DNA of 64,000 nt from Micromonospora craterilacus (GTDB taxonomy: Bacteria > Actinomycetota > Actinomycetes > Mycobacteriales > Micromonosporaceae): the NCBI RefSeq assembly GCF_003236315.1, contig NZ_POTY01000003.1, forward strand, positions 1-64,000. The letters run 5' to 3'. Position numbers and translations under genes: made by a program. Shown here in pieces: positions 8,177 through 30,288 of the stretch (position 1 is its first letter; every line of letters starts with the position of its first letter). A model generated the notes under the pieces. It saw only the letters and a list, made by a program, of their open reading frames with translations. It did not search any database and was not told where the DNA came from.

Positions 8177-8557
8177 TCAGATCCAGTCGGGGCCGATCCG
8201 GCTGCAGGAACTGAGGTGGTCGCACTGGTCGCTGGCGACGATCTGCGCGACGGCGAGCACGTCACGCAGCCGGGGGTCGGCGATCCGGTACACGCCTCGG
8301 CGGGACACCCGGTCGACTTCGACGAACCGGCACCAGCGCAGGCAGGCGAGATGGTTCGACACACGGCTCTGCGGCACGTTCAGGATGCTGACAAGTTCGC
8401 TGACGCTGCGTTCCCCGTCGAGCAGGAGCCGCAGGATGGCCAGCCGGGTCGGGTCGGACAGCACCCGGAAGAAGCGGGCATCGGCGACGGCGGTCTCGAC
8501 CGGCGACTGGGTGGTGGTGGTATCCGTTTTGGCTCCGCTGGCAGGAGCTGGCGTCAT
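8177..8557 (-). CDS. ArsR/SmtB repressor, CmtR-like (ArsR1)
   Basis: Winged-helix metal-type repressor of 126 aa. The core runs FRVLSDPTRLAILRLLLDG through the recognition helix VPQSRVSNHLACLRWC. Cys72 and Cys76 form a C-x3-C in the recognition helix, and Cys112 and Cys118 sit in the C-terminal tail. Mycobacterial CmtR uses Cys57, Cys61 and Cys102 for Cd/Pb; the interval from Cys76 to Cys118 (42) nearly equals CmtR's 61 to 102 (41). I infer a metal- or thiol-responsive repressor. It heads the NRPS-FAAL genes and a dyad operator overlaps its own promoter, so autoregulation is likely. A putative -10 TAGGAT ends 6 nt before the ATG, suggesting a leaderless mRNA. Confidence 0.93.
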   Translation of the reverse strand: MTPAPASGAKTDTTTTQSPVETAVADARFFRVLSDPTRLAILRLLLDGERSVSELVSILNVPQSRVSNHLACLRWCRFVEVDRVSRRGVYRIADPRLRDVLAVAQIVASDQCDHLSSCSRIGPDWI

Positions 8558-8571
8558 GGCGCGATCCTAAA

Positions 8572-8585
8572 ACAGGATGTCCTGA
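8572..8585. promoter_or_regulatory. Dyad operator A1 in the ArsR1-NRPS-FAAL promoter
   Basis: ACAGG-ATGT-CCTGA, a 5-4-5 inverted repeat with one arm mismatch, 15 nt from the ArsR1 start. It lies between a weak -35 (TGTCGT) and the -10 TAGGAT on the minus strand, where a bound repressor would block RNA polymerase. The nearby ATCCT-AAAAC-AGGAT (8564-8578) is an overlapping second dyad. Assignment to ArsR1 is inference. Confidence 0.6.
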
Positions 8586-8611
8586 TACGACAGAGCCGAA
8601 TCGACGGCGGT

Positions 8612-9892
8612 TCATCCGTCGCCGGCCGGCGACGGCTGCCCGCCGATGCGGTGGACGGTGACCCCCGGCCGGTCGGTCACGACGTGCCAGGGGTCGACCA
8701 CCACGGAGCCCGCCGCGAAGGGGTACCCGGTGAACTCGGGTTCCGGGCAGCCGATGAAGTAGGCGCGGGCGGCGGCGGCAGGCGGCCGGCCGATCAGATC
8801 CGCAGGCGTGGCGACGACCTCGGCCGTGGCGCCCGCGAAGTGGAGCATGGTCACCATGAGCGCCGAGGAGCTGCCGGTCTGCAGGTCCGTGCCCGGTTTG
8901 AAGGCGGTGCCCAACACCGTCATCGGGAGGGGGCCGGCGTACTCGGCGAATCGCCGGGCCAGCCACTCCACGTACGCCTGCCGGGTCCGCAGGACGCCGG
9001 TGAACAGGTCGGCCTCGCCGCCGTGCGCCCGGAACAGCCAGGAGAGCGCGATGTTGTCCCGCGGATGGCAGGGCCCGCCGTCGCCCATGCCTGGGCTGAG
9101 GTATGCCGCGCTGGTCAGGCGTTGGTCCCCGCTGCGGATGATCCGCAGGACGTCCCCGGCGTCCGCGCCGGTCTCGTGCGCCATCCACTGGACCAGGTTG
9201 GCGACGGTCACCTTGGCGCTGACGAACGTGTTGTAGACGACCTTGGCGAGTTCGGCGGTCTCGTACGAGACCTCGAACAGCGGTGCGTCGGCGAGGCTGG
9301 CGAGCACCGTCGACACGGTGCCGTGGCGGTAGGTTGCCGGGGCGCCGATCATGGTGAACTCCGGCCGGCTCAGGTCCTGCGCGACGCGTCCCATGCCGAC
9401 GAACTGTGGACAGTAGAGGATCGGGTGCGCGGTGGCGACCGGCAGGATCTGTGCGCGGATGGTCCCGGGCAGCACGGTGGACATCACGCCGATCTCGATC
9501 GGCCCGGGCGCGTGGGCGGCCACGTCGCTGACGGCACGCCGCAGCGCGGTGTAGTCGAAGTCCGCTCGGGAGTCCGGCAGCGGGGTGATGCCCTCGTACA
9601 TTGGGCGATGCGGTGTCTCCACCACCACGAAGACGCAGTCCGCTGCGGACAAAAGCTCGGGTAGCGGTGCGAACCGCAGGGGTACGGTGTCGTCCACCAA
9701 GTCGACGAGGGTGCCCTCACCGTCCGGTCCGCGTTCGTACCGGGACAGCGCGGCGGTGCGCATCCGGGCGTCGTCCCGGTCGTATCCGATGACCTGGTAG
9801 CCCCGTAGGGCGAGCGCCGCTGCGACCGGTAGACCGAGCTTGCCGAGCCCAACGACGCCGATCGTTACCGCCATAGCGTGCAACTTGACCAT
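8612..9892 (-). CDS. UDP-glucose/GDP-mannose 6-dehydrogenase family protein
   Basis: NAD-dependent nucleotide-sugar dehydrogenase that would oxidise C6 of an NDP-hexose to a uronic acid. The N-terminal Rossmann motif is GVVGLGKLGLP, and the catalytic Cys lies in GDGGPCHPRDNIAL, which matches the GGxCxPxD signature. A C-terminal UDP-binding region contains GTAFKPGTD. Full length is 426 aa; an internal ATG seven codons in (9874) begins directly at MAVTIGVVGLGK and may be the true start. It is divergent from the VOC-glycosyltransferase operon, and two dyads lie in the shared 105-bp intergenic region. In this context it most likely supplies a sugar acid for decoration of the product. Confidence 0.93.
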   Translation of the reverse strand: MVKLHAMAVTIGVVGLGKLGLPVAAALALRGYQVIGYDRDDARMRTAALSRYERGPDGEGTLVDLVDDTVPLRFAPLPELLSAADCVFVVVETPHRPMYEGITPLPDSRADFDYTALRRAVSDVAAHAPGPIEIGVMSTVLPGTIRAQILPVATAHPILYCPQFVGMGRVAQDLSRPEFTMIGAPATYRHGTVSTVLASLADAPLFEVSYETAELAKVVYNTFVSAKVTVANLVQWMAHETGADAGDVLRIIRSGDQRLTSAAYLSPGMGDGGPCHPRDNIALSWLFRAHGGEADLFTGVLRTRQAYVEWLARRFAEYAGPLPMTVLGTAFKPGTDLQTGSSSALMVTMLHFAGATAEVVATPADLIGRPPAAAARAYFIGCPEPEFTGYPFAAGSVVVDPWHVVTDRPGVTVHRIGGQPSPAGDG

Positions 9893-9917
9893 GGGTGCGG
9901 TTGCCGCACAAGGCCCG

Positions 9918-9935
9918 CATCAGGTTTCCCTGATG
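9918..9935. promoter_or_regulatory. Dyad operator A2, upstream of the nucleotide-sugar dehydrogenase
   Basis: CATCAGG-TTTC-CCTGATG, a perfect 7-bp inverted repeat with a 4-nt spacer. Its core TCAGG-N4-CCTGA (9920-9933) has the same geometry as operator A1. It sits 26 nt before the upstream start of the leftward dehydrogenase, in the divergent promoter region. Confidence 0.6.
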
Positions 9936-9965
9936 GATGAACATCGGCCCGAGTCGGACAGTGAT

Positions 9966-9985
9966 ACATCTGGCTTCCCGGATGT
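9966..9985. promoter_or_regulatory. Dyad operator A3, upstream of the VOC-GT1 operon
   Basis: ACATCTGG-CTTC-CCGGATGT, 8-bp arms with one mismatch and a 4-nt spacer. It overlaps the upstream edge of a putative -10 (TACGGT, 9986-9991) which ends 6 nt before the GTG at 9998, consistent with a leaderless operon repressed from this site. The right half-site (CCGGA) matches the operators of the right half of the locus, so it looks like a hybrid site. Confidence 0.55.
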
Positions 9986-9997
9986 TACGGTACCGGC

Positions 9998-11542
9998 GTG
10001 CGGGTGCGACCGACGCCACCGCCGGCCCGCCGGCCGGGCACAGTCGCCTGCCTGACCGTCGGCGACATCGGCAAGGCCGTCGCCTACTACGAGCAGTTCT
10101 TCGGCTTCCGGGCCCGCCTCGTCGAGTCCGCCGCCGCCTGGTTGACCGGCCACGGCACAACGCTGCGGCTCCGCCTCGGACCGCCGACGACCGCCGGAGC
10201 CGACGACCGCCCGGACCCGGACGCGGTGCTGTACGTAGGCCAGCCCGAGGTGCTGCGGCGGCGACTCGACGACTGGGGCGCGCACCTGACCAGCGGCACC
10301 ACCCTGGGCGAGCAGTGGCGGGGCTACTACGCGGTGCGCGACTGCTACGGGAACCTGCTGGCTTTCGGAGCGACCGGCGCGCCGGCGGCGCTGCTGCGAC
10401 CGCTTTACGAAGCCGGCGACGGCGCGCGGCGCTGGCTCGGACGGCAGATCGGCGACCGCGACCAGCGCCGGGAGTCGCGCCGGCTACGGGACTTCCACCA
10501 GCGGCACCAGATCCCCCAGGGCGCGTACTACCTGCACGTCACCACCGGGCTGCTGCACTGGCTGCTCGCCTGCGAACGACGCCTTCCCCCCGAGCTGCCC
10601 GTGGTGGTGGTCGGCTCCGGACTGACCGCGCAGGAGTCGGACTGGCTCGCACGCCAGCTGCCACGACCGTTCCACCACATAGCTGCACGCCGGGACGACG
10701 CCGGCGTCCTGGAACTCGTCTTCGCCGCCGCCACCGGCGACTTCGGCTGGATCGAGCCGGGCTGCCTGGTGCTCGACCACCGGGTGCTCACCGACCTCGC
10801 GGCACCCGCGGACGGCGTCGCCCTGCGGTGCGCCTGGTCGTACGACGCCGGGCTCGGGGCTCCGCTGGCCGCACCCTACCTGCTGTTCTTCGACGCCGAC
10901 GCGATCCGTCAGGTGCGAGCAGCGGTCCCCGGCATCTCCCCTGGCATCTACGCCTACGACCGGTTCAACCGGCAGGTCGACGGCGAGCGGTGGTACACCC
11001 GCACCCCGAGCCGCCAGCAACGGCGACGGTTGGCGGCGGTGGCGCCCCGGGCGGCCGACGGGCGCCCGGCGACCCCGCTCGGCACGTCCTTCTACGACAC
11101 CACCGTGCTGTACCAGCTGGCCGCGCGGACCTGCGGGTGGTCGGTACGCCCGGTGCGGTCGCTGCGCGCCAACAACCACGTCCGGGGCGACGCCGTGCAG
11201 GACGACGCCTCCGACGAGCTGGTCTACATCGGCGCGCTCGGCTACGCGGACCCGCTGGAGGAGTTCAGCGGCTTCTTCCACGACGGTGCGGTACGGCAGC
11301 GCTACCTGTTCGCCGAGTACGTCACCTTGCAGCCGGTGGCGGACCAGCTGCCGGACAGTTACCGGGCGCGCCTGGCGGCGGTTGTCGAAGCGATGGCCGC
11401 ACAGGGCCTTCGTCCGGACGACGCCCACGCCGCGGTCCGCGACTACCTGTGCACCGTGCTCGGACTCTCCGCTGCGGCCACCGCTTCGGTGCTGCAGGCC
11501 GACAACTCGGGGCCGACAGTTCAGGAGGCGTTAGTTGAGTGA
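9998..11542 (+). CDS. VOC (glyoxalase-like) domain fused to a glycosyltransferase-like domain (VOC-GT1)
   Basis: A 514-aa fusion. Residues about 14-130 resemble a VOC/glyoxalase fold (CLTVGDIGKAVAYYEQFFGF, ending YGNLLAFGA). The rest (about 185-490) is a domain I cannot name with certainty. It carries TGLLHWLLACERRLP, a Rossmann-like VVVVGSG, GDFGWIEPGCLVL and FFDADAI, which suggest a GT-A-like glycosyltransferase. It is paralogous over its whole length to the gene at 30289-31821, with matching GLLHW, SDWL/VDWL, RPFHHI/RPLHNI and DFGW/NFGW blocks. The paralog has WLDIDCF where this one has WIEPGCL, so a D-x-D is lost here. GTG at 9998 has no Shine-Dalgarno but a well-placed -10, hence probably leaderless. 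It is first in an operon with DUF5990, carbamoyltransferase and SGNH genes. Confidence 0.8.
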   Translation: MRVRPTPPPARRPGTVACLTVGDIGKAVAYYEQFFGFRARLVESAAAWLTGHGTTLRLRLGPPTTAGADDRPDPDAVLYVGQPEVLRRRLDDWGAHLTSGTTLGEQWRGYYAVRDCYGNLLAFGATGAPAALLRPLYEAGDGARRWLGRQIGDRDQRRESRRLRDFHQRHQIPQGAYYLHVTTGLLHWLLACERRLPPELPVVVVGSGLTAQESDWLARQLPRPFHHIAARRDDAGVLELVFAAATGDFGWIEPGCLVLDHRVLTDLAAPADGVALRCAWSYDAGLGAPLAAPYLLFFDADAIRQVRAAVPGISPGIYAYDRFNRQVDGERWYTRTPSRQQRRRLAAVAPRAADGRPATPLGTSFYDTTVLYQLAARTCGWSVRPVRSLRANNHVRGDAVQDDASDELVYIGALGYADPLEEFSGFFHDGAVRQRYLFAEYVTLQPVADQLPDSYRARLAAVVEAMAAQGLRPDDAHAAVRDYLCTVLGLSAAATASVLQADNSGPTVQEALVE

Positions 11543-11921
11543 CGTTCAGGTGAGGCTGACCATCGTGGCCGACGGGTTGCCCTCGACGGCGGACACGTTC
11601 GAGGTCGGTCTGCAGGCCGGGAAGGACCGGCTGCTGGCCGGGACCCCGACCGACGACGGTGGCCTGCGGTACGAGTGTGAGGTGGCTGCCACGAGCCGGC
11701 CGGACGGCTCGACGGGATTCCGCGGCGAGTGTGTGCACGGGCCGACGGCCGAGCGTTTCCTCTACCTCAGCGTACGGGCTCCCGGTGGCGACAGCTGGTA
11801 TCGACGCATCAAGATCATGCTGCCGCGGGGTCCCGACCTCGGCACCGGCCGGCTGACCATCCGGGTACGCGACGAGGGCCGGGCTCGGGCCGCCGTCGTC
11901 ACCGACTGGACGCCGGCCTGA
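11535..11921 (+). CDS. DUF5990 family protein
   Basis: A 128-aa single-domain protein with the pattern I recall for DUF5990: GLQAGKDRLLAG, then FRGECVHGPTAERFLYLSV and WYRRIKIML. Function is unknown. The start is TTG at 11535, supported by GGAGG eight nt upstream, and overlaps the preceding stop. Members of this family are usually single genes, so finding one translationally coupled inside a biosynthetic operon is unusual. No signal peptide or membrane segment. Confidence 0.8.
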   Translation: MSDVQVRLTIVADGLPSTADTFEVGLQAGKDRLLAGTPTDDGGLRYECEVAATSRPDGSTGFRGECVHGPTAERFLYLSVRAPGGDSWYRRIKIMLPRGPDLGTGRLTIRVRDEGRARAAVVTDWTPA

Positions 11922-11934
11922 ACCGCCCACGACC

Positions 11935-15765: not shown

Positions 15766-15768
15766 CGG

Positions 15769-18700
15769 TCAGATCAACACGTCGTCGTCGCCCGCCAGAT
15801 TGTCCTCCGGCTCCGGTCGCTGCGCACCATCGAGGCGGGCGGCCAGGGTGCGGATCGTCGGGGCGCCGAAGAACTGCGCGACGGGCAGCGTCACCCCGGT
15901 CGCCTCGCGGACGCGGGCAAGCATCCGGAGCGCCACAAGGGAGTCGCCACCCAGCTCGTCGAAGAAGTGGTCGTCGATTCCCAGCCGGTCGAACCCCAGC
16001 AGCTCGCTCCACAGGTCAGCGAGGACCTGCTCGGTCCGCGTCTCCGGCGCCGGATGCCGGTCCGGCTGTTCCGGACCTCGGCGCGCACCCGGTACCGGAA
16101 CCATCGTCTCCAAGAGCGCGACATGCGCCTGTGGGGTGTACGCGGCGTGCACGGCGAGGAGTTCGTCGAGCGGCTGGGTAGAGATGATCACTGTCGGGGC
16201 GGGGCGGTGCGTGAGCACCCGGCGGAAGATTTCCGTTCCTTCCGCCGCGGTGATGCCGTGCAGGATGTCGCTGTCGGGTCGCAGTGCCGTCGGCGAGGAC
16301 GGGGCGTAGCGGCCGGCGAGCCGGCGCTGCGCCGCCGCCCACATGCCGGCCTCCAACCAGTCGGTCCAGGCCACGGCGAGCACGCCGGGCGGTGCTGTCG
16401 GGTCGTCGGCGCGGTGTGCGGCGTAGGCGTTGAGGAACTCGTGGCCGGCGAGGTAGCCGACCTCGCCGAACTTCAGGTGGTGCAGCACGGTGCCGATCGA
16501 GGAGCTGAGGAGGACGAACTCGGGGCGTTGGTCGCCGAGCGCCGCGACGAGCGAGAGGGTGCCCTCGATCTTGGCGGCCGCCGCGGTCACCGTGTCGTCC
16601 CTGGTGCGACGTTGGATCATGCCGCCGAAGTCGGGTACGCCGGCCGCGTGGATCACGCCGGTGATCGGGCCGTGCCGGGTCACCACCCGCTCGACGACGC
16701 TGCGCATGCCGGCCCGGTCGGTCACGTCGACCTGGGCGATGTCGACCTGTCCCCCGGCTTCCTGCATCCGCCGCAGGCGGCGGATCGACAGCGCCGTCGG
16801 GTCGTCCTCGGGATGCGCCCGGAGCCACGCCGTCCATTCCTCGGGTGCCGGGAACCGCTCGCGTCGGGTCAGGACGACGGTCGCGGGCAGCGATGCGAGC
16901 GAGGCGGCCAGGCTGAGACCGATACCGCCGAGCCCACCGACCACGAGGTACACGCCGCCGGGTCGCAGTGCGTCGCCGAACCGGTCGGGTTCGGGCAGGC
17001 GGGCCGGCTCGAACCCGGGTAGCCACCGGCGTCCCCCACGGTAGGCGACCGCTGGCCGGGACTGGTCGGCGACGAGTTCGCCGACCACGTGCCGGGCGTC
17101 CCGATCCGGGTCGCCGCCTTCGGGCAGGTCGATGCTGTCGCATCGGACCCATGGCAGCTCACGCGGCACGACCTTGGTGACCGCGTACACGGTGGCCTGG
17201 CCGGGGTTGGCGAGGTCACCCCCGACAACGTCCTGCGCGGCGCGGGTGACGACCGACAGCCGCACGGCTCCGGCCGCCGTTTCGCCGAGACCACGGGCGA
17301 TCGCCAGCAGGTGGTGCAGCCCGTACTCCTGGTCCCGGAGGCTGGTCTCCGCCGCCGGCCCGACCGGCAGGTCCGCCAGCCAGGCATGCACCACCAGATC
17401 GGGGCGGACCGAGGCGAGGATCCGCCGCACGGCCTCGTCGTCACCAGGCTCGACGGACACGTCCCCATGGTTCGCCGCCGGGCTCGACGGGGTCGAGCGC
17501 CCGGGGGTGGGCCGGACCACGGTGACCTGGCAGCCACGCGCGCTGAGTTCCTCGCCGACCCGGTCGCCGAGCGGACCGGCGGCGAACAGTAGACAGGTCC
17601 CCGGTACGGCCGATCTGGCCGGCATCGGCGCCCGCCGCCAGGTCGGCGTGTAGCACCAGTCCGCCATGTCGGGCTGCCGGGCGGGCAGGGCGGCCGGGAG
17701 CCCGGTCGGCGGGCTTTGGTGTTCCCCGGCGACGGCTTGCACCAGGATCAACGCGGCGTCGCCGCGGTCGCCGCCGGCGGCTGCCTCGGGCAGGACGACG
17801 CCGCGGTGACCGGGGAGTGCGTTCACGGCGGTACGCCAACCGTCATGGTCCAGCAGCGGTGTGCGGTCGCGCAGCCGGTCGGCGAACGACCACCACCCCT
17901 CGGACAGGCCCCACACCATGGACAGCCACCGGTGGGTCGCGGTGGTCTCGACCAACCCCAGCACCCCGCCGGGTGCCAGCAGCCGGGTCAGCCGTCGAAG
18001 CGTGTCCGGCACGTCCGGGGTGGCGTGCACCACGTCGAGGCCCACGACCAGGTCGTAGCCGCCGGACGGGTAGCCCTGGGCGACGTGGTCCCGGGTGACG
18101 TCGAACAGCCCGACGCGTATCGGCGCACGGCCGCGCTCCGCCTCCCGGCGCAGGTGCGCGACGAACATCGGTGAGATGTCGGTGGCCTGATAGTCGGCCC
18201 GGCTGCCGAGCGCGGTGACGAGCTGCCGGGTGAGCCGCCCCGCACCGGCGCCGACCTCTAGCACCCGCATTGGGCGTTCGTGGCCTGCGGTGAGGTGGTC
18301 GGTGAGCCGGGTCAGAGCCTGGATCTGTCGGTCGACGTCGTCGGCCGGCCGCTGGTCGCCGGCCTGGCCGAGTACCCGCTGCAGGAAGTCACCGCGTCCC
18401 TCGGGGTAGAGGACGGCGAGCGCCGCGCCGGGTTCCCGAAGGGCGTCACGGTAGTGGCGTACGCAGTGCCGCACCAGTTCGACGACTCCGCGGTACGCGG
18501 GGAACCCGGCGACGAGACGCTGGGCGAGCAGGTCCGGGTCCGGGTCGGCCGCCCGCTCGGCGAACACCACCTCGTCACCCGCACGGACCAGGACGGCGTC
18601 CTCGGCCAGAATGTCCAGCAGGTAGCTGACCAGGCGGCGGTAGGCGGGCAGGGGTCGCAACCGGGCGTCGAGGTCGGCGAGCCGGTGCCGGGCACCCGCG

Positions 18701-21594: not shown

Positions 21595-24500
21595 CGGCTT
21601 CACCTCCGCGACGTCTGAGGGCGGCCCGGCGTGCGGCCGCGCGGGCCCGTCCCCGGCCGGCGGCAGCGTCGGACGGCCGGTGAGCGGGTGCGGCGTTGCC
21701 GGCGGCGGCATGCTCGGTGCGGCCCGATCCTTGCAGCCGGTCCGCGAGCGCGGCGATGGTCGGCCACTGCAACAGGTCGACCACCTGCAGGTCGCCGTCG
21801 ATCGCGGCGCGCAACTGACCGTAAAGCTTGAGCAGCAGCAGGGAGTTGCCCCCGAGGTCGAAGAAGCCGTCGTGCACGCCGACGTCCGGCCGGTCCAGGA
21901 CGGAGCACCAGACGCGGGCGATGGTCCGCTCCAACTCGGAACGGGGCGGCACGGCGGTGGTTCGGGCGGGTGCGACGCCGGCGGCGTGCTCGGCGAGCCG
22001 GCGCCGATCCAGTTTGCCGTTGTCCGTGCGGGGCAGCCGGTCCAGGGTCGACCAGGCGGTCGGGGTCATCACCGGGGGCAGCCGTTGCCGCAGGTAGGCC
22101 GCCAGCTCGCCAGGTTCGGGCGGCACGGGACCGGGGACGGTGAACGCAACGAGCCGCTCGTGTGGCGCGGCGGTGTGCACCACCGCGACGTCTCGGACCG
22201 CCGGGTGGTCGCGCAGGACTCGCTCGATCTCCTCGAGTTCGATCCGCACACCCCGCACCTTGATCTGACGGTCCAGCCGGCCGAGGAACCAGATCGTGCC
22301 GGTCCTCCCACGCCGCGCCAGGTCACCGGTCCGGTACAGCCGGTCCCCCGTCGCCGGCCCGAGGTGGTCCGGCACGAACAGCTCGGCGGTGAGCGCGGGA
22401 CGGTGCAGGTAACCCCGGGCCAGCGGCGGGCCACCGACGAGCAGGGTGCCGCGCATGCCGTCGGGCACCGGATGTCCGTCGGTGTCGACAAGCCAGATCC
22501 GCGCCCCGGCGACCTCACTTCCGATCGCGGGGGGCCCGTCGCCGTCGCCCACCATGCCGCTGGTGACGTACGTGGTCGCCTCGGACGGTCCGTAGAGGTT
22601 GCGGACGGTCAGGTCCGGCAGGTGGTGACGCAGCCGGGAGACGAGCTCACGGGGCAACGGCTCGCCGGCCAGGTTGGCGCACCGGAGCCCGGCCGGCAGC
22701 GCGTCGGCGTCGATGAGTGCGTCGAGCACCGAGGGCACCGTGTTAACCAGGGTTGCCTGCGGGGCGGCCGGGTGCGGCGGGAGTGCCTGCGGGCGGTCGA
22801 CCAGGATAACCGCGCCACCGGCAACGAGCGGGGCGAACAGTTCGAAGATCGACAGGTCGAAGCCGACGGAGGTGAGGGCAACGAGGCCGGCGAGCGCGTC
22901 GCGGCCGAACTCCCCCGTCGCCCAGCGCAGGAAGTTGACGGCTCCTGCCTGGGTGATCGCCACACCTTTGGGTAGGCCGGTGGAGCCGGAGGTGAACAGG
23001 ACGTACGCCAGGTTGGCCGGGTCGGTCGGCACCCGCGGCCGGCGGCGCGGCCGACCGCGCGCGACGGTGTCGCCGGCGTCGATGAGCAGGGTCGGACCGC
23101 GGTGACCGGCCTGCGCCGCCAGTGCGGTGGTGGTGACCAACAGCGTCGCCCGGGCCTGCGTCAGCATCAGCCGTATCCGGTGAGCCGGCAGGTCGGGATC
23201 CAGCGGCAGGAAGGCGGCACCGGCTTTGACCACGGCAAGAAGGGTGGCGAGGAGGTCCGGGGTGCGTGGCAGGTACACCCCGACCACCTGCTCCGGTGCG
23301 ATGCCACGAGCCCGCAGCTCGTGTGCGAGCTGGTTCGCGCGGCGATCGAGGGCGGCATAGGTCACCTGTTCGTGGTGACCGTAGACGGCGACGGAGTCGG
23401 GTTGCCGGTCGGCTGTCTGTTCGACGAGGCGGGCGAGGCCGTCTGGCGCGCCGCTGGACTCGATCCGTCGGCGGTACGGCGCGGCCGTGCTTCCGGACAC
23501 CGCGAGGGCCCCGATCGGGCGCTGCGGATCGGCCATGCCCGCCCGCAGCAACTCGCCGACGTGCTGGGCAAAGGTTTCCAGCGTGTCGGCGCGGCACTCG
23601 GCCGCGTCGGCTTCGAAGGTCAGTGCCACCCGGTCGGCCGTGGCGGTGACGGTGAGGCTGAGGTGGTATTTCGCGGCCGGGGTCGGCGGTGGCAGCGACG
23701 TGGTGACCACGCCGGGCAGCCGGGGTGCGGACGGTTCGGTCTGGTAGGTGAGCAGCACCTGGAACAGCGGGGTGTGCCGTGGCGATCGTGGTGGGCCGAC
23801 CACGTCGACGATGGTCTCGAAGGGGGTGTGCCGGTGCTCCACGGCGTCCAGCAGCGTGTCGCGGCACTGGCGGACGAGAGCGTCGAGAGTGGTGGCGGGG
23901 GTGGGTCGCAGGCGTAGCGGCAGCGGGTTGAGCCGGAGCCCGATGTGGGCCAGGTCGGTAGGGGTTTCGCGGAGGCTGACCGGGGTGCCGATGACAAGGT
24001 CGTGGTGGCCGGTGTAGCGGTGGATCGTGGCCGCGAGCCCGGCCAGCAGGGCCATGGCCATGGTGGCGGATCGGTGGCGGGCGAAGCGGCGGAGGTGGTC
24101 CACCTCGTCGGAGCCGAGGATGGTGGTGTACGTGACAGCGGCCGGTGTCCGGGGCCGGCCGGTGGGTGCGGCGTCGGGTGGCCAGATCGAGACGGGAGTC
24201 GGCGGGCCGGACATCTGCCGCCGCCAGAACGTGAGATCGTCCGCCGGTCGGTCATGGTCGTCCGGCGGGTGGACCGGCGCGTCGTCGTCAGTGTCGGAGC
24301 CACCCCGGCCGCGGTCCTCCAGTGTTGCGGGCGGGGGTCGTCCCGCGGCCAGTGCGGCGCTCAGTGAGGTCAGGTCGGCGCTGAGAGGGGCCAGGCTCGC
24401 CCCGTCGAACACGATGTGATGTGTCGAGAAGACCAGGACATGCTCGTCGCGGCGGACGCGCAGCAGGGTCCAGCGGGTGACCGGGCCGGCGGCGAGGTCG

Positions 24501-24835
24501 ATCGGGCGGCGGGCGATGCCCCGCACGACGGCGGGAACCTGCGCGGCGGGCAGTTCGACCAGTGCCATCGGATCAATCGCTCGGCGGTCTACCCGTCGCC
24601 ACAACTCGCCGTCGCGCTCGACGTAGCGGGAGCGCAGTGCCGGGTGCTTGCGCATCAGGGCGACGACCGTCAGACGGAGGGTCGCCAGGTTGAGCAACCC
24701 GTCGATGCGGATCGGCAGGCACACGTGGTATGCCGGGTCGTCCGGGGCGATCCGGTGCAGCAGCCAGAGCCGCCGTTCGGCCGGCGTGACGGCGAGGTCG
24801 TCGGGATCGTCCGGCCGGTACGGCGATCCACCCAC
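21563..24835 (-). CDS. Single-module NRPS, C-A-T
   Basis: A 1090-aa synthetase. C domain with intact HHIVFDG near residue 140; A domain with LFTSGSTGLPKGVAIT near 613 and YRTGDLARR, NGKLDRR; T domain with DLGGNSLLLL near 993. Reading specificity residues by eye against GrsA gives D-L-F-N-N-A-L-T-Y, which resembles Ala codes, so alanine is a tentative prediction. The 3' end overlaps the PKS start by 32 nt, indicating translational coupling, and the pair would add one amino acid then one methylated ketide. A dyad operator lies 33 nt upstream of the start, between it and the ArsR2 gene. Basic, low-complexity tail after the T domain (GRGRARAAARRAALRRR) may be a docking region. Confidence 0.95.
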   Translation of the reverse strand: MGGSPYRPDDPDDLAVTPAERRLWLLHRIAPDDPAYHVCLPIRIDGLLNLATLRLTVVALMRKHPALRSRYVERDGELWRRVDRRAIDPMALVELPAAQVPAVVRGIARRPIDLAAGPVTRWTLLRVRRDEHVLVFSTHHIVFDGASLAPLSADLTSLSAALAAGRPPPATLEDRGRGGSDTDDDAPVHPPDDHDRPADDLTFWRRQMSGPPTPVSIWPPDAAPTGRPRTPAAVTYTTILGSDEVDHLRRFARHRSATMAMALLAGLAATIHRYTGHHDLVIGTPVSLRETPTDLAHIGLRLNPLPLRLRPTPATTLDALVRQCRDTLLDAVEHRHTPFETIVDVVGPPRSPRHTPLFQVLLTYQTEPSAPRLPGVVTTSLPPPTPAAKYHLSLTVTATADRVALTFEADAAECRADTLETFAQHVGELLRAGMADPQRPIGALAVSGSTAAPYRRRIESSGAPDGLARLVEQTADRQPDSVAVYGHHEQVTYAALDRRANQLAHELRARGIAPEQVVGVYLPRTPDLLATLLAVVKAGAAFLPLDPDLPAHRIRLMLTQARATLLVTTTALAAQAGHRGPTLLIDAGDTVARGRPRRRPRVPTDPANLAYVLFTSGSTGLPKGVAITQAGAVNFLRWATGEFGRDALAGLVALTSVGFDLSIFELFAPLVAGGAVILVDRPQALPPHPAAPQATLVNTVPSVLDALIDADALPAGLRCANLAGEPLPRELVSRLRHHLPDLTVRNLYGPSEATTYVTSGMVGDGDGPPAIGSEVAGARIWLVDTDGHPVPDGMRGTLLVGGPPLARGYLHRPALTAELFVPDHLGPATGDRLYRTGDLARRGRTGTIWFLGRLDRQIKVRGVRIELEEIERVLRDHPAVRDVAVVHTAAPHERLVAFTVPGPVPPEPGELAAYLRQRLPPVMTPTAWSTLDRLPRTDNGKLDRRRLAEHAAGVAPARTTAVPPRSELERTIARVWCSVLDRPDVGVHDGFFDLGGNSLLLLKLYGQLRAAIDGDLQVVDLLQWPTIAALADRLQGSGRTEHAAAGNAAPAHRPSDAAAGRGRARAAARRAALRRRGGEADDDDAEPTGR

Positions 24836-24867
24836 GCGGCGCTCCTGACGGCTTCAACCACGAAGAA

Positions 24868-24881
24868 TCCGGTAAACCGGT
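24868..24881. promoter_or_regulatory. Dyad operator B1 upstream of the C-A-T NRPS
   Basis: TCCGG-TAAA-CCGGT, a 5-4-5 inverted repeat with one arm mismatch, in the 91-nt gap between ArsR2 and the NRPS start. It matches the operators at 26689, 28895 and 30235 in sequence and spacing. Confidence 0.55.
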
Positions 24882-24926
24882 TTTCGTCGATGTTAGACAC
24901 GCGGCGAGTGGCGGGACAAGGGCTCG

Positions 24927-25277
24927 TCAGAGCGCGCGGCAGGTGGTGATCGCCGCCTCGTTCTCGCTGAGGAACGTCCGAGCCAGCCTGAGGAACTCCT
25001 GCGCCCTCTCGTCGGCGACCCGGTAGATGAGCCGGCGCCCGCGTCGCTCCACGGTGAGGAATCCACACCAGACCAGACAGTGCAGGTGTTCTGACGCGCG
25101 CGACTGCGGGATGCTCAGCCGCTGGAACAGTTCCGACTGCGACAGCTCGCCATGCTCGATGATCAGCTCGATGATGCTCAGCCGCCGGGCCTCGCCGAGC
25201 GTGCGGAACACGCGGGCGAGCAGCTCCCGTTCCGGTAGTGGCGTGTTGTCGGGGGCGACAGTGGCCGGCCGTCCCAT
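24927..25277 (-). CDS. ArsR/SmtB repressor, CmtR-like (ArsR2)
   Basis: A 116-aa winged-helix repressor. The DNA-binding helix reads LSIPQSRASEHLHCLVWC, with Cys67 and Cys71 in C-x3-C and Cys113 near the C-terminus (AAITTCRAL). These three positions have nearly the same spacing as the Cd/Pb ligands Cys57, Cys61 and Cys102 of CmtR. It is a paralog of ArsR1 (8177-8557), which likewise stands immediately before an NRPS gene. ATG at 25277 is preceded by GGGAGG. It lies between the DUF169 gene and the NRPS-PKS pair on the same strand. I infer that it represses the genes with TCCGG-N4-CCGGA sites. Confidence 0.93.
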   Translation of the reverse strand: MGRPATVAPDNTPLPERELLARVFRTLGEARRLSIIELIIEHGELSQSELFQRLSIPQSRASEHLHCLVWCGFLTVERRGRRLIYRVADERAQEFLRLARTFLSENEAAITTCRAL

Positions 25278-25388
25278 TCGGTCGAACCTCCCGGAGGCGT
25301 CCCGCCGGCGCGGCGCCGGCCGCGGCCTGCATGGCCGTTCGACCGACGCTACGCCATCGGCTGGTGGATGCCTACCAACTGCGAACGG

Positions 25389-26108
25389 TCACGATGCGGT
25401 GACCGCCGCCAGTCGGCTCTGGTAGAAGCCGAGCATCTTGCCGTTGGCCTCGGCGGTGGACCTCAGGGCCGCGGTGAACGACTCGATCTGGTCACCGGGC
25501 ACGACGGCGAGCATCCGGTCGTCGGCGATGCTGGTGAAGGTCCGCATGCCGATGCAGCCGAACGAGAGGGTCGGCGTCGCGGAGCCGAGGGCCAACGGGA
25601 TCGCGGCGCAGGCCGGGCGTCCACCCACCCGGGCCGGGGTCGCCGCCCAACTCGCCGTGCCGATGGCCTCGTTGAACACCATCGCCTGCTTTGGGGTCAG
25701 CCACATCACCACCGCCTTCGGGGTGACGGGAAACGATCCCAGCGGCCCGTAGACGGCACCACCGGCGTTGCCGCCCACCGAGGGAATCTTGGCGCCCTCC
25801 TCAGCGCCCAGGTAGGACCATCCGCACATGGTTTCCACCAGGCCGCCGAGCTCCTGCATGACCTCGGCGGGCATATCGAAGCCCATGACCATGGAACCCA
25901 CCGGGCAGTTGTAGTGCTGCGCTGCGGCCGCGAAGAACACCTCCTGCTCGCCCCGCCGCCAGAAGGCGCAGGCCGAGGGGGACACAGCGGTGGTCGTCTC
26001 GACCCCGTCAGGGACCTGCTCCACGAACGCGACCGCGACCGGCGGCTGCTCAAGGTCGAGCAGCGCGCTGATCTCCGTGGCGGCGTCCCGGTACTGCGGC
26101 ATGGTCAT
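25389..26108 (-). CDS. DUF169 family protein
   Basis: A 239-aa soluble protein with the DUF169 pattern: LEQPPVAVAFVE near the N-terminus, SACAFWRRGE, HYNCPVGSMVMGF and FGCIGMRTFT. Six cysteines, including those in SACAFW, YNCPVG, ETMCGW, RPACAA and FGCIG, make metal or cofactor binding plausible, but the family has no defined reaction that I know. Two in-frame ATGs at 26108 and 26102 compete; neither has a strong Shine-Dalgarno. It precedes ArsR2 on the same strand with a 111-nt gap and follows the terminator-like hairpin at 26198. Confidence 0.85.
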   Translation of the reverse strand: MTMPQYRDAATEISALLDLEQPPVAVAFVEQVPDGVETTTAVSPSACAFWRRGEQEVFFAAAAQHYNCPVGSMVMGFDMPAEVMQELGGLVETMCGWSYLGAEEGAKIPSVGGNAGGAVYGPLGSFPVTPKAVVMWLTPKQAMVFNEAIGTASWAATPARVGGRPACAAIPLALGSATPTLSFGCIGMRTFTSIADDRMLAVVPGDQIESFTAALRSTAEANGKMLGFYQSRLAAVTAS

Positions 26109-26197
26109 TTGATGCCCCGATCATGAGCGGTAGGGATGGACCTGTGCTGGTGACGCTGATGGATCACTTCGGCGCAGATGTGTGCCAGGACCTGAAA

Positions 26198-26229
26198 GGC
26201 TCGACGTGCCCCGTTCGACACGTCGAGCC
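26198..26229 (-). terminator. Hairpin after the 50-aa peptide gene
   Basis: Perfect 11-bp inverted repeat GGCTCGACGTG / CACGTCGAGCC with a 10-nt loop. There is no U tract, as is common in actinomycetes. It separates the peptide gene from the DUF169 gene on the same strand, so the peptide pair is probably its own transcription unit. Confidence 0.7.
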
Positions 26230-26250
26230 ACAGCTACCCGATCGGGCCGA

Positions 26251-26403
26251 CTAAAGCACCACCGACTCGGACGTCGAGTAGTCGACGGACGCGATTTCCG
26301 GGGGACACTCGCTGTCCACCGGCTCCACGTATCCGCCGAACACACGCGCGAGCTCCTCGTCGGTCATTTCGAGCGCCGAGAGCTCCGCTTCAACCTGGGC
26401 CAT
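26251..26403 (-). CDS. 50-aa double-glycine-type peptide, candidate RiPP precursor
   Basis: Encodes a 50-residue acidic peptide. Residues 1-24 end MTDEELARVFGG, very like the helical leader and GG cleavage site of Nif11/bacteriocin-type precursors. The following 26 residues begin YVEPVDSECPPEIASVDYST and end ESVVL, with one Cys, five Ser, one Thr and two Tyr, so they offer modification sites. The start ATG at 26403 is strongly supported by GGAGGTGAGGTT directly upstream, and it is 34 nt downstream of a membrane-peptide gene. A CCAEP-tail radical SAM gene under an almost identical promoter lies 1 kb away. No C39 peptidase/exporter is visible. Precursor status is inference; it could instead be a small regulator. 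Confidence 0.65.
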   Translation of the reverse strand: MAQVEAELSALEMTDEELARVFGGYVEPVDSECPPEIASVDYSTSESVVL

Positions 26404-26437
26404 AACCTCACCTCCTTCCGGCCGCCTGCCACGGCTG

Positions 26438-26647
26438 TCATCGCAGCCGTGCGAACTGGACGACCAGCCCGGCCAGGACCAGGAACAGCAGCAGCAGAAC
26501 AAGCCACAGTGCCCGGAACACGGCGGGCCGGACTCCGCGCGGAAAAATCTCAGGACGCTGCGCCGCCGGCGGTGGGACGGCCTCGGCCATCGACGCCAGG
26601 CGGGTTGATTGCTCGGGCAGCACTCCCACCTCCCGTGCCATCGCCAC
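26438..26647 (-). CDS. Small one-helix membrane protein
   Basis: A 69-aa protein with a Pro-rich N-terminal half (AVPPPAAQRPEIFPRG) and one strong hydrophobic segment, ALWLVLLLLFLVLAGLVV, followed by QFARLR. Start is GTG at 26647 (VAMAREV), with an ATG two codons later as alternative. It is the first gene of a two-gene unit with the 50-aa peptide and lies 42 nt from dyad operator B2. Not recognised as a family. It could anchor, export or protect against the peptide. Confidence 0.6.
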   Translation of the reverse strand: MAMAREVGVLPEQSTRLASMAEAVPPPAAQRPEIFPRGVRPAVFRALWLVLLLLFLVLAGLVVQFARLR

Positions 26648-26688
26648 AATGACGTTCTTCGTTGCGGGCGCTCACCGATACGGAACCT

Positions 26689-26702
26689 TGCGGAAAACCG
26701 GA
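26689..26702. promoter_or_regulatory. Dyad operator B2 within the membrane-peptide promoter
   Basis: TGCGG-AAAA-CCGGA, a 5-4-5 repeat with one mismatch. On the minus strand a consensus -35 TTGACA ends just before it and TTCCGT follows at 17-nt spacing, so the dyad fills the promoter spacer. The ankyrin gene starts 113 nt to the right, so this could also serve the divergent direction. Confidence 0.6.
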
Positions 26703-26814
26703 TGTCAACACCCGGCCGGACAGGCCTGCTCGCCTCCACGTGCAACTGGCATCCGGTTCTCCCGATACCTACGATGTCCGAAAGGTACGTGTGCACAACC
26801 ACCGGGAGCACATC

Positions 26815-27390
26815 GTGTCCGAAAGCCAGGACAAGTCCGCGCCGCTGTTCACCGCCGTCGCGAATGGATCAATCGAGGCGGCCACGGCGGCACTCGATGC
26901 GGGTGCGATCGTCGATACGCGGGACGACGACGGCTGGTCGGCGTTGGATCGCGCCGCCGGCCGCGGCGACACGCCGATGGTGCAGCTACTGCTCGACCAC
27001 GGTGCCGACCCGTTCGGCACCGGGCCGGAGCAGCGCACGGCGTACGACATCGCCGTCGCGGCGGGCCGGTTGGACACTGCCCGGGCGCTGCGATCGGTGC
27101 AGGTGCGCCTCGACCCGACCAGCGCCGACGATCACCTGTGGCGGCCGTACTGCAAGGCGTATCAGCTGGGCCAGCTACGTGTCGCCGCCGGATGGGACGC
27201 GGCCGCCCGGGCGGACGAGTTGACCGACGACAGCGTTGTCTTCCTGCACGACGACTACACGGTGACCCGCGCCATGTGGCCGGGCGAGGATGTCGTGTTC
27301 GATGCGGTAACCCCTGATTGGATCACCTTCTGCCAGCAGGTGCTGACGTTCGCCGTCCCGGACGAGTTGGACCTGGTCCCGAAACCCTAG
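26815..27390 (+). CDS. Ankyrin-repeat protein
   Basis: A 191-aa soluble protein. Residues about 10-100 hold ankyrin repeats: APLFTAVANGSIEAATAALD, WSALDRAAGRGDTPMVQLLLDHGADP and TAYDIAVAAGRLDTARAL. The C-terminal half (LTDDSVVFLHDDYTVTRAM to the end) is not recognised. I chose GTG at 26815 because GGGAG precedes it by a good distance; the frame is open back to ATG 26662, but that part has no Shine-Dalgarno and crosses operator B2. Its stop overlaps the radical SAM stop by 3 bp on the opposite strand. Ankyrin repeats usually mediate protein binding, so it may be an adaptor for the peptide system. Confidence 0.82.
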   Translation: MSESQDKSAPLFTAVANGSIEAATAALDAGAIVDTRDDDGWSALDRAAGRGDTPMVQLLLDHGADPFGTGPEQRTAYDIAVAAGRLDTARALRSVQVRLDPTSADDHLWRPYCKAYQLGQLRVAAGWDAAARADELTDDSVVFLHDDYTVTRAMWPGEDVVFDAVTPDWITFCQQVLTFAVPDELDLVPKP

Positions 27391-28856
27391 AGCAGGGGTT
27401 CCAGCTGGCTGCGAACCGGCTCCGCACAGCAGAACCAGGGCTCGGTCAGGTAGGGAACTGCCACCGAGGTGCTCGCTGTCGGTTCCAACGCGGCCAGCTT
27501 CTCCGCCTCCGGTCCACCCAGCAGCTGCGCAGCATGCTGCCGTACCCGATCGAAGACCTCGACTCGGCTCCACCCGACGCGTGCGGCATCCTCGGCGACG
27601 GCGAAGACGGCACTTTGCAGCTCGTCCATCAGCGGATCCGGATGGGTCCAGCGGTAACACAGTCCCTCGGGGTCGAACGTTCCGAGGTGCTCCTGCATGT
27701 CGGTACGGTCGAGCAGCCGTGACCCCGCGGGGACCAGTAGGCGGATGGCGTACTGCACCGCAGCCACCGACTCCACCAGACCCAGGTTGCAGACCGCCGT
27801 CAGGAAGTCCGCGTAGCTTTCCCGCGACGTCCACGGGGTGAACGCCACGAACGTCGGGTTGACCGCGATCCCGACCTCTCTCAACGTGCGAAGGGCGACG
27901 ACGAGATCCTTCGTGGTGTGTCGCTTGTCGAACACCTCGAGAACGGTGTCGTCGAAACTTTCCACCGCGGTGGTGACGAGCACGCAGCCGGTGTCGCGCA
28001 GCAGCGGCATCATCTGCGGATGGGCGACCAGGTGTTCTACCTTGATCGTCACGTCGTAGCTGAGGGCCGGGAACCGCTCGTGCAGGCGGGTGACAATCGC
28101 GGCGGCGTGCGTCGGCCCATTGAGAAAATCCGGATCGCCGAACGTGATGTGCTCGGCGCCCGTCTCGACCAGGGCGGCCACGTCCGCATCGACGACGTCA
28201 CGCTGAACGACGCGGAAGCGTCCGCCGTACACCGGCACGATCGGACAATGTCGGCAGACGTGCTTGCAGCCGCGGCTGGCCTCGGTGTAGCCGACAGTCC
28301 GTCGGGTGCCGTCGGGCAGTTGCAGCGAGGCGTACGACGTCAGTGGTGGCAGTCCCGCCCGGTCGGGCTGCCGGAACGTCTGTCGGTCCAGGGAGATCAG
28401 CGGCAGCGTCTGCCGTACCGGCGGGTGAGGTAAGGCCGGCGGCGATTGCGAAAGTTCGGACACAAGGGCGCTCAGCGGCGCCTCGAACTCGCCGCCGAGG
28501 ACGGTGTCGACGCCGAGCGCACGCAGGAGGCTCTCGTTGACCGGCGCGTAGAGGCCGTACGCGCACAGGTGTGCCGTGGGGTTGAGGACGCGCACCCGTG
28601 GGATGAGCTCGACCGCCATCCGGGTGGCCGTGTGCATCGGTAGATAGAAGGCGACCACCTCGGCAGCCTTGACGGACGCCTCGGGGAACGACTCAACAGC
28701 GAGATCGACTGCCGTCACCTCGGCGCCTGCAGCGCGCAACCAGGCCGCCGGTGAGGCAAGCCCGAAGGGCTGATGGCCGAGTTCGTACGTCGACAGCAGT
28801 AGCACGGGTATCGGTCGGCGGGCGCGTTCCCTGTCCTGCGTGGCAGCAGTACTCAC
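27387..28856 (-). CDS. CCAEP-tail radical SAM protein
   Basis: A 489-aa radical SAM enzyme. Residues about 17-135 form a Rossmann-like domain in the position of a B12-binding domain but without DxHxxG. The Fe-S motif is C197-x3-C201-x2-C204 (RGCKHVCRHCP). The C-terminus reads WFCCAEP with Cys476 and Cys477 (codons TGC TGT at 27431-27426), 12 residues before the end. I recall a family named for this CUAEP/CCAEP tail, in which some members carry selenocysteine. The start is GTG at 28856 with GAGAGGA upstream. Its promoter (TTGACT, then dyad B3) almost duplicates that of the membrane-peptide gene, so they are probably co-regulated. The substrate is unknown; the 50-aa peptide is the obvious local candidate. 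Confidence 0.88.
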   Translation of the reverse strand: MSTAATQDRERARRPIPVLLLSTYELGHQPFGLASPAAWLRAAGAEVTAVDLAVESFPEASVKAAEVVAFYLPMHTATRMAVELIPRVRVLNPTAHLCAYGLYAPVNESLLRALGVDTVLGGEFEAPLSALVSELSQSPPALPHPPVRQTLPLISLDRQTFRQPDRAGLPPLTSYASLQLPDGTRRTVGYTEASRGCKHVCRHCPIVPVYGGRFRVVQRDVVDADVAALVETGAEHITFGDPDFLNGPTHAAAIVTRLHERFPALSYDVTIKVEHLVAHPQMMPLLRDTGCVLVTTAVESFDDTVLEVFDKRHTTKDLVVALRTLREVGIAVNPTFVAFTPWTSRESYADFLTAVCNLGLVESVAAVQYAIRLLVPAGSRLLDRTDMQEHLGTFDPEGLCYRWTHPDPLMDELQSAVFAVAEDAARVGWSRVEVFDRVRQHAAQLLGGPEAEKLAALEPTASTSVAVPYLTEPWFCCAEPVRSQLEPLL

Positions 28857-28894
28857 CGCGTTTCCTCTCGCGCGATCCGCGATTCAGCGAAGCA

Positions 28895-28908
28895 TCCGGC
28901 TAACCGGA
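28895..28908. promoter_or_regulatory. Dyad operator B3 within the radical SAM promoter
   Basis: TCCGG-CTAA-CCGGA, a perfect 5-4-5 inverted repeat. On the minus strand it follows a -35 TTGACT directly and precedes TTCGCT at 17-nt spacing. Fourteen bases, GTTGAC(A/T)TCCGGTT, are shared with operator B2 with a single difference. Confidence 0.65.
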
Positions 28909-28931
28909 AGTCAACCACTGCCGCCGATGTC

Positions 28932-30131
28932 TCACGCAGGGGCGGCACAGGTGGACGAGGCGGTGGCACCGGCCAGCCGTTGCTTGAAGAAGGCGAGGAT
29001 CTCGGGCAGGGCGGCGGGCAGGACGTCGACGTGTCCCTTGCCGGGAAAGAGCTTTGCGGTGATCATCGCGCTCGCGGCGCAATATCGCTGGCGCAACTCG
29101 CGCGCATTTCGCAGGGGGATCGTGTCGTCGACCTCACCGTGCACAAGCATGATCGGCACGTCCGGCGCCGTGCCGCCGAGCTCGTTCTTCGCCAGCAGCG
29201 CCCGGACCTCGGGTGCATCCAGGACAGCGCCGGTGCCGTAGGTGTCCGTCCTACCGTCGGCGTACTCCCCTAGAATCTCGTCTACGCACTTGCCGGGGAT
29301 CTGGTCGAGGGCGGTGCTGCCGGCCGCCGTCAGTCCGTCCATCGCGACCTGCGGATACGCCGTCCGGTAGCCGTGCGCAGTCATCAGGACGTAGCCGAAG
29401 TAGGGACCACCGGCGAGCTGAGCGTCGAGTTCGTCGAGACCCGCCGGGACGGCGACTCCCGCCGCTCCGACCAGACGGATGTCGGGTGCGTACTTGGCGT
29501 GGATCTCGGCCGCGTACAGCGCGGCCGCGCCCCCCTGCGACTGCCCGAGAATGAAAGCGCTCGCACCGGTCGCGTCGAACAGTTGGCTGCCGGCGCGGAT
29601 CGAATCCAGGACGTTGCGCGCCGATGCCTCGTTGACCATGAAGGGGTGTTCGCCCGGTGTCCCCAGCCCCTCGTAGTCCGAGGCGACGAAGATCGCACCC
29701 TCCGCGATGGCCCGCCGCACCAGGGCAAGTGAGTCTCCAGCACCTCGGGCGTAGCCACGCGACGGGGCACAACTGTCGTCCAGACCGACCGTCCCGTGGG
29801 CCCAGGCCAGAATCGACCGCGGACCGGCCGACGCCGGTTCCTCCGGCTGGAACGCCACGCCGGACACGGCGACCAGGTCACCACTCGTCGCCGTGGACCA
29901 GTAGAGAATGGCGAACCCGGTCAGCCCGTCCGGGCTCGGCACCGGTCTGGCCCAGATGAGCTGCCCCGGTTTGGCGTCGGCCGGCCGGGTGGGCGGCTGG
30001 TAGAAGGCGTCACCGGCCGGCCCGGGGGTCACCAGCGGGGCGGCGGTGCCGGCCTCGGGTGGGCTCGTGCCGTCGCAGCCGGCTCCGGCGAGCACACCGA
30101 GGATCGTGAGAAGTGCGAGGGCGCGCCGCAT
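28932..30131 (-). CDS. Secreted lipase/esterase (LIP family), lipoprotein
   Basis: Alpha/beta hydrolase of 399 aa of the secretory lipase type. Residues 1-20 (MRRALALLTILGVLAGAGC) form a lipoprotein-type signal ending in Cys. The nucleophile elbow is GQSQGG, the acid lies in HGEVDDTIPL, and the His in GKGHVDVLP. The oxyanion region is AWAHGTVGLDDSC. ATG at 30131 was chosen because it starts the signal peptide; the frame is open to 30302 but the extra part runs through the divergent promoter. It lies between the radical SAM gene and VOC-GT2. It may hydrolyse an external ester, or be an unrelated neighbour. Confidence 0.9.
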   Translation of the reverse strand: MRRALALLTILGVLAGAGCDGTSPPEAGTAAPLVTPGPAGDAFYQPPTRPADAKPGQLIWARPVPSPDGLTGFAILYWSTATSGDLVAVSGVAFQPEEPASAGPRSILAWAHGTVGLDDSCAPSRGYARGAGDSLALVRRAIAEGAIFVASDYEGLGTPGEHPFMVNEASARNVLDSIRAGSQLFDATGASAFILGQSQGGAAALYAAEIHAKYAPDIRLVGAAGVAVPAGLDELDAQLAGGPYFGYVLMTAHGYRTAYPQVAMDGLTAAGSTALDQIPGKCVDEILGEYADGRTDTYGTGAVLDAPEVRALLAKNELGGTAPDVPIMLVHGEVDDTIPLRNARELRQRYCAASAMITAKLFPGKGHVDVLPAALPEILAFFKQRLAGATASSTCAAPA

Positions 30132-30234
30132 GCGACGCAGGCTACCAACCGGGCGGAGCAGATGACATGGATCGTCGTGGGGCGCCGTGCCGGCTCTGGC
30201 GGCTGAACCGCGACAGGCGGTAGCGTCTGTCAGA

Positions 30235-30248
30235 TCCGCGATTCCGGA
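30235..30248. promoter_or_regulatory. Dyad operator B4 upstream of VOC-GT2
   Basis: TCCGC-GATT-CCGGA, a 5-4-5 repeat with one mismatch and matching flanking A/T. It is 41 nt before the ATG at 30289 and just downstream of a possible -10 (TAGCGT, 30221-30226). Same geometry as B1-B3. Confidence 0.5.
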
Positions 30249-30288
30249 TGCCAGGACGGCACCACCGTGACACTGAGGAGCGGACGCG

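Follow-up and report, generated by a model that had tools for sequence, protein, structure and literature searches.

In the 64,000 nucleotides of Micromonospora craterilacus analysed here (contig NZ_POTY01000003.1, positions 1-64,000, forward strand; hereafter the window), a biosynthetic cluster with nonribosomal peptide synthetase (NRPS) and polyketide synthase (PKS) genes encodes two paralogous ArsR-type repressors, ArsR1 and ArsR2, each with three conserved cysteines. Judging from sequence comparison, we consider it very likely that both are autoregulated and that each runs one half of the cluster through its own version of a promoter dyad, from which metal would release it; the product is probably made only in the presence of a toxic metal, for which mercury is the likeliest candidate. 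ArsR metal-sensing repressors are known mainly from resistance operons; in this case a pair of them, each with an operator code of its own, seems to govern a large NRPS/PKS cluster that three actinobacterial genera have in common. If this is true, adding the metal would be a direct route to waking a silent cluster, the pair would offer a clean natural system for ArsR paralogs that divide their operators via one recognition-helix residue, and the cluster would be a lead to a metal-dependent, possibly metal-containing natural product.

Dyads in the cluster promoters

A first-pass annotation of this DNA had placed dyads at 8572, 9920, 9969, 24868, 26689, 28895 and 30235, and all seven are present there with the arms it described: TCAGG-N4-CCTGA at the left sites, TCCGG-N4-CCGGA at the right ones, a hybrid (TCTGG/CCGGA) at 9969 and, among those listed, perfect arms at 9920 and 28895 alone. 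Absent from that list was an eighth dyad of equal quality at 26752 (TCCGGTTCTCCCGA), before an ankyrin gene, and an outer extension, CATC...GATG, had been overlooked; with it the arms reach about 7-4-7 and the site including its flanks reads about CATCMGG-N4-CCKGATG. As had also been argued, the number of dyads is by itself weak evidence (5 observed and 1.8 expected for the TCAGG type, 15 and 8.7 for the TCCGG type), and significance rests on promoter position. The core is indeed not rare: TCMGG-N4-CCKGA occurs exactly at 104 places in the 7.3 Mb genome, and a genome-wide tally of core dyads was dropped as uninformative on that account.

The position bias is strong in bases 1-34300, where one-mismatch matches number 9 in 1,288 intergenic bases (7.0 per kb; two of them, 30235 and 30243, overlap each other) and 9 in 33,012 coding bases (0.27 per kb), a 26-fold difference in density (binomial P = 5.3e-9, somewhat optimistic since the consensus was derived from the same sites). 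Equal density in coding DNA had been named as grounds for discarding the dyad; in this comparison, made on the window, the densities are far from equal. Beyond base 34300 there is no intergenic bias (1 intergenic and 8 coding matches). Allowing no more than one mismatch, the extended site has 14 matches in the genome, of which 4 fall inside the window (P = 5.5e-6, optimistic for the same reason, which leaves the cross-species evidence given below untouched). None of the 10 places outside the window adjoins an arsR gene, and about half lie within predicted genes. One of the four matches in the window, at 27627-27644 and with one mismatch, lies within the radical S-adenosylmethionine (SAM) coding sequence and is probably due to chance.

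From a mechanistic point of view, the clearest putative operators take up the spacer that separates the -35 and -10 hexamers, so that a bound repressor would block RNA polymerase, and such occlusion is the natural reading of the promoter geometry. Hexamers at this spacing flank the dyads at 26689 (TTGACA-N17-TTCCGT), 28895 (TTGACT-N17-TTCGCT), 8572 (GTCGTA-N16-TAGGAT), 30235 (GTCAGA-N17-CAGGAC), 9969 (GATACA-N17-TACGGT) and 26752 (CTGGCA-N18-TACGAT). The order of elements at the ArsR1 site, which is followed by TAGGAT, CGCGCC and ATG, suggests a leaderless message.

The two repressors and the metal they would sense

An ArsR paralog does stand before each NRPS gene, ArsR1 before NRPS-A and ArsR2 before NRPS-B, and the cysteines annotated earlier were confirmed at their residues (Table 1). 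The ArsR winged-helix domain is over the curated cut-offs in both proteins (22 bits for HTH_5, 55 bits for NF033788). The alignment columns that hold C72, C76 and C118 show no variation across eight relatives, whereas that of the extra Cys112 of ArsR1 does; Cys112 was dropped as a candidate third ligand, being missing in Catenulispora. The description of both proteins as CmtR-like holds for the site, a C-x3-C in the recognition helix plus one C-terminal Cys at CmtR-type spacing as in the Cd/Pb sensor of Mycobacterium tuberculosis, with one more residue before the last Cys here. It does not hold for descent: ArsR1 and ArsR2 score 63.0 and 38.9 bits, under the NCBIfam CmtR equivalog cut-off of 150 bits, and in the tree the CmtR clade (100/97) leaves them out. 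They join the MerA-linked ArsR repressors at 89/67, outside the MerA-linked clade proper (100/97), and their nearest relatives adjoin mercuric reductase in 7 of the 7 genomes found (three near-identical; 5 non-redundant loci).

Operators of this class recur across actinobacteria. The sampled actinobacteria gave 36 distinct arsR genes whose products combine a recognition-helix C-x3-C with a C-terminal Cys; in 21 of them the 180 bp upstream contain YATC-N10-GATR with palindromic inner arms, compared with 1.06% of control segments, the pattern itself having been prompted by some of the same 36 genes. This anchored test replaced a plain spacer histogram of 7-bp inverted repeats, which gave no clear N4 peak because GC-rich controls hold many palindromes. 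The inner triplet tracks the type of protein: it is GCC-like for ATPase-linked ArsRs (STVS[KA]H), CGG for MerA-linked ArsRs and ArsR2 (SRASEH), and AGG for ArsR1 (SRVSNH). This correspondence with the recognition helix is evidence that the cluster ArsRs bind the cluster dyads, and it points to N68 of ArsR1 and E63 of ArsR2 as a single specificity position, at which N68 would select A and E63 would select C in the half-site. ArsR2-type sites match the ATCCGG-N4-CCGGAT found before a MerA-linked ArsR gene (L107) and before MerA of Rhizocola, where a perfect CATCCGG dyad lies directly upstream; in ArsR1 sites each arm has one base changed. A precedent for ArsR binding of such dyads is Rv2034, an autorepressing ArsR protein whose footprint, close to the start codon, covers an 8-4-8 palindrome (4-bp spacer) with a different arm sequence; Rv2034 did not respond to the metals tested (PMC3338718).

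Actinobacterial mer repressors of the Streptomyces lividans type share the ArsR fold and the three-Cys arrangement with ArsR1 and ArsR2, and mer operons of actinobacteria are known to have repressors of the ArsR type (PMC3466566). These mer repressors adjoin mercuric reductase, whereas the present cluster has a pair of paralogs that differ in their half-sites, and the proposed targets are NRPS, PKS and radical-SAM genes. Mercury appears the likeliest inducer because the ArsRs group with MerA-linked repressors and the cluster holds a MerB-like organomercurial lyase and an ArsL-like radical-SAM protein. The lyase gene is apparently the second of the GlyGT2 operon, with orthologs in the same place in the other clusters; its WCAIDAL and WCPNVNFF motifs align to MerB (PDB 5c17, 3f2g), and the catalytic Cys-Asp-Cys is kept in all three clusters. 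MerB was found in 15 of 198 sampled actinobacterial genomes. Against mercury stand the modest support (89/67) for grouping ArsR1 and ArsR2 with the mer repressors, a lyase score under the NCBIfam MerB cut-off (84 versus 200 bits), the use of the same Cys pattern by CmtR for Cd/Pb, the handling of arsenic by ArsL, and the absence of any MerA over cut-off in the host genome, so that the lyase does not obviously serve ordinary mercury resistance.

It is quite plausible, if short of probable, that the metal sensed is Cd(II)/Pb(II), Zn or Cu, as in CmtR-like or metallophore-type systems, or As(III), as in an ArsL-type organoarsenical pathway. Among PDB entries ArsR1 matches CmtR best (2jsc, 49 bits), with nearly equal Cys spacing, and ArsL is the closest characterised family of the radical-SAM protein (NF040542, 292 bits, under the cut-off of 450); in the arsQML arsinothricin cluster, whose biosynthetic genes are metalloid-inducible and include an ArsR and the radical-SAM enzyme ArsL, the inducer is As(III) and ArsL builds the C-As bond (PMC8552651). 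However, the tree puts both ArsRs beside MerA-linked ArsRs and not in the CmtR clade, the cluster carries the MerB-like lyase, and the scanned cluster genes showed neither an ArsM-like gene nor an arsenic pump; unlike arsQML, moreover, this cluster has two ArsRs and large NRPS/PKS genes, and its CCAEP-tail enzyme is not ArsL by the cut-off. From these comparisons, Hg(II) or an organomercurial would have a little under an even chance of being the inducer, another metal would be a doubtful candidate, As(III) an unlikely one, and the lack of any metal inducer quite improbable.

On a more speculative reading, less likely than not, the cluster would make a peptide-polyketide with a true carbon-metal bond (Hg or As): the radical-SAM enzyme would capture the metal on the Cys-Cys (or Cys-Sec) of its CCAEP tail and attach it to an amino acid, with the MerB-like lyase protecting the producer, and both ArsRs would turn the pathway on only with that metal. 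About half of the radical-SAM relatives read have TGA, as for selenocysteine, at the second tail Cys. We take the WFCCAEP tail to recall the C-terminal Cys pair of mercuric reductase. At other loci of the CUAEP family, ATP-grasp amino-acid ligases make up 20 of 139 neighbouring proteins, which suggests that the radical-SAM enzyme makes an unusual amino acid.

A separate Rhizocola region, 80 kb from its cluster (L175), encodes an HgcAB-like fusion, a CpaM methyltransferase, a heavy-metal P-type ATPase, DUF169, MerA and two mer-type ArsRs; ATCCGG dyads occur there at 6766 and 18120. The HgcAB-like mercury-methylation genes were rejected as part of the cluster, since they are present in Rhizocola alone. 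MerB-like genes near a CUAEP-tail radical-SAM gene were also seen in Catenulispora, Nonomuraea and one Pseudonocardiales genome.

Two parallel regulons or one

With the radical-SAM protein as query, nearly the whole cluster was found in Rhizocola hellebori and Goekera deserti, both of which have ArsR1 immediately ahead of NRPS-A, and Catenulispora rubra was found to have the radical-SAM gene, DUF169 and ArsR1. The ArsR1 orthologs stand at 70% (Rhizocola), 62% (Goekera) and 61% (Catenulispora). At the promoter of arsR1 or its operon, TATCAGG-N4-CCTGTT is present in all four genomes, its arms constant and its spacer ACAT in the window, TCTT in Rhizocola, CTGA in Goekera and CAAT in Catenulispora. 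The Goekera site scores 10; the segment used in promoter-wise P scoring was too short to include it. A perfect Catenulispora site, CATCAGGCTAGCCTGATG (L023 6223-6240), was first counted for ArsR1 and then left out, as it precedes a different ArsR gene (6298), of the CVCDL type, and sits inside a longer palindrome.

Rhizocola has ArsR2 (164 bits) together with TCCGG-type sites in the ArsR2/NRPS-B gap, before the peptide operon (identical to 26689 in the window) and in the GlyGT2/radical-SAM gap (P 0.011-0.056 per promoter; the range over window and Rhizocola promoters is P 0.003-0.056). ArsR2 was not found in the Goekera genome, nor were TCCGG-type sites at its homologous promoters, where scores are at chance (P 0.57-0.96); the peptide-operon promoter there retains TTGACA and TTCCGT, and the dyad between them is gone. 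Since ArsR2 and the TCCGG sites disappeared jointly in Goekera, where ArsR1 persists with its TCAGG site, two parallel regulons fit better than the regulon shared across the locus that had first been proposed, a proposal that was right in placing ArsR-type operator dyads in promoters across the cluster.

We infer that ArsR1 would bind TATCAGG-N4-CCTG(A/T)T, controlling the operon that it shares with NRPS-A as well as the sugar-dehydrogenase promoter, and that ArsR2 would bind ATCCGG-N4-CCGGAT, controlling its own operon (membrane peptide, GG peptide, DUF169, ArsR2) and, as further proposed targets, NRPS-B with the PKS, the radical-SAM gene, GlyGT2-MerB and probably the ankyrin gene; the hybrid site at 9969 may be shared by both. 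A soft thiophilic metal, most likely Hg(II) or an organomercurial, would bind C72/C76/C118 (C67/C71/C113 in ArsR2) and free the repressor, and biosynthesis would be switched on. Several observations weigh against this model: most single dyads carry one mismatch, each promoter alone gives P 0.001-0.06, the 9920 dyad is without good flanking hexamers, that at 24868 is just partly between hexamers, and the divergent dehydrogenase/GlyGT1 promoter of Goekera has no detectable site although ArsR1 is present.

A single regulon, in which both ArsRs or their heterodimers bind all dyads with overlapping specificity, would account for the Q-S-R-x-S-x-H found in both proteins, for the outer CATC/GATG and the GG/CC bases common to all dyads and for the hybrid at 9969, but we hold it to be improbable given the joint loss in Goekera and the different half-sites used by the two cluster halves, which match the positions of the two arsR genes. 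Very improbable indeed is the idea that the dyads serve another, unlinked regulator or are chance palindromes of GC-rich promoters, for although the core is common in the genome and the consensus was drawn from the sites, intergenic enrichment is confined to the cluster, footprints are conserved around variable spacers, the sites were lost with ArsR2, and the same operator class precedes unrelated three-Cys arsR genes.

Other features of the cluster

The putative operators and the genes of the cluster are listed in Table 1. The GlyGT1 operon extends to 15765 with DUF5990, carbamoyltransferase and SGNH-like genes, and the second domain of the paralogous GlyGT1 and GlyGT2 matched no Pfam family. 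The GlyGT pair, the carbamoyltransferase and the NRPS-flanked PKS form a layout which we take to recall bleomycin-type clusters.

Table 1. Putative operators and genes of the cluster in the window
Feature	Position	Strand	Remarks
NRPS-A, two C + two A + two T domains	1760..8122	-	Pfam; downstream of ArsR1
ArsR1, three-Cys ArsR repressor	8177..8557	-	C72/C76/C118; recognition helix SRVSNHLACLRWC; Pfam HTH_5 60.6 bits; NF033788 83 bits
Putative ArsR1 autoregulatory operator	8570..8588	-	Coding strand GTCGTA-TCAGGACATCCTGTTT-TAGGAT-CGCGCC-ATG; arms kept in 4 genera, spacer variable
Nucleotide-sugar dehydrogenase-like gene	8612..9892	-	Pfam
Putative operator CATCAGG-TTTC-CCTGATG, perfect 7-4-7	9918..9935	.	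Upstream of dehydrogenase gene; Rhizocola ortholog also preceded by TCAGG-type site
Hybrid putative operator CATCTGG-CTTC-CCGGATG	9967..9984	.	Upstream of 9998 operon
GlyGT1, glyoxalase-like + second-domain protein	9998..11542	+	First gene of operon
PKS module KS-AT-MT-KR-ACP	15769..21711	-	Pfam
NRPS-B, C-A-T	21563..24835	-	Pfam
TCCGG-type putative operator AATCCGG-TAAA-CCGGTTT	24866..24883	-	Between ArsR2 and NRPS-B; counterpart at this place in Rhizocola (L021 13112), none in Goekera
ArsR2, three-Cys ArsR repressor	24927..25277	-	C67/C71/C113; recognition helix SRASEHLHCLVWC; Pfam HTH_5 28.4 bits; NF033788 70 bits
DUF169 protein	25389..26108	-	Pfam 84 bits; in ArsR2 operon
Small peptide, GG-type leader then one Cys (MAQVEAELSALEMTDEELARVFGGYVEPVDSECPPEIASVDYSTSESVVL)	26251..26403	-	Equivalents in Rhizocola and Goekera
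One-helix small membrane peptide, first gene of ArsR2 operon	26438..26647	-	Start 26647 or 26641; equivalents in Rhizocola and Goekera
Putative operator of ArsR2 operon promoter	26687..26704	-	TTGACA-TCCGGTTTTCCGCAAGG-TTCCGT; between both hexamers; identical in Rhizocola
Additional TCCGG-type site CATCCGG-TTCT-CCCGATA	26750..26767	+	Before ankyrin gene; 4/6 match to TTGACA, TACGAT at -10 spacing
Ankyrin-repeat protein	26775..27390	+	Pfam; start inferred from domain position
Radical-SAM protein, CUAEP/CCAEP-tail family	27387..28856	-	NF040546 625 bits (cut-off 500); tail WFCCAEP
Putative operator of radical-SAM gene	28893..28910	-	TTGACT-TCCGGTTAGCCGGATGC-TTCGCT; coding-strand reading
Putative operator upstream of GlyGT2-MerB	30233..30250	+	GTCAGA-TCCGCGATTCCGGATGC-CAGGAC
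GlyGT2, glyoxalase-like + second-domain protein	30289..31821	+	Orthologs 681 and 630 bits
MerB-like organomercurial lyase	31940..32566	+	C-A-I-D + C kept; Pfam PF03243 84.5 bits (cut-off 27)

The window begins at the contig end, so that the left end of the cluster (an adenylation-domain gene and beyond) is cut off; Rhizocola has the cluster in a longer version. The two small genes at 26251-26403 and 26438-26647, previously overlooked, resemble a precursor of the ribosomally synthesized and post-translationally modified peptide (RiPP) type inside an NRPS/PKS cluster. Immediately to the right of the cluster lie a MerR-family regulator gene (33401-33889, minus strand), whose best match is the mercury MerR at 93 bits, under the cut-off, and a DF-family (seleno)protein-like gene (33974-34300, plus strand).

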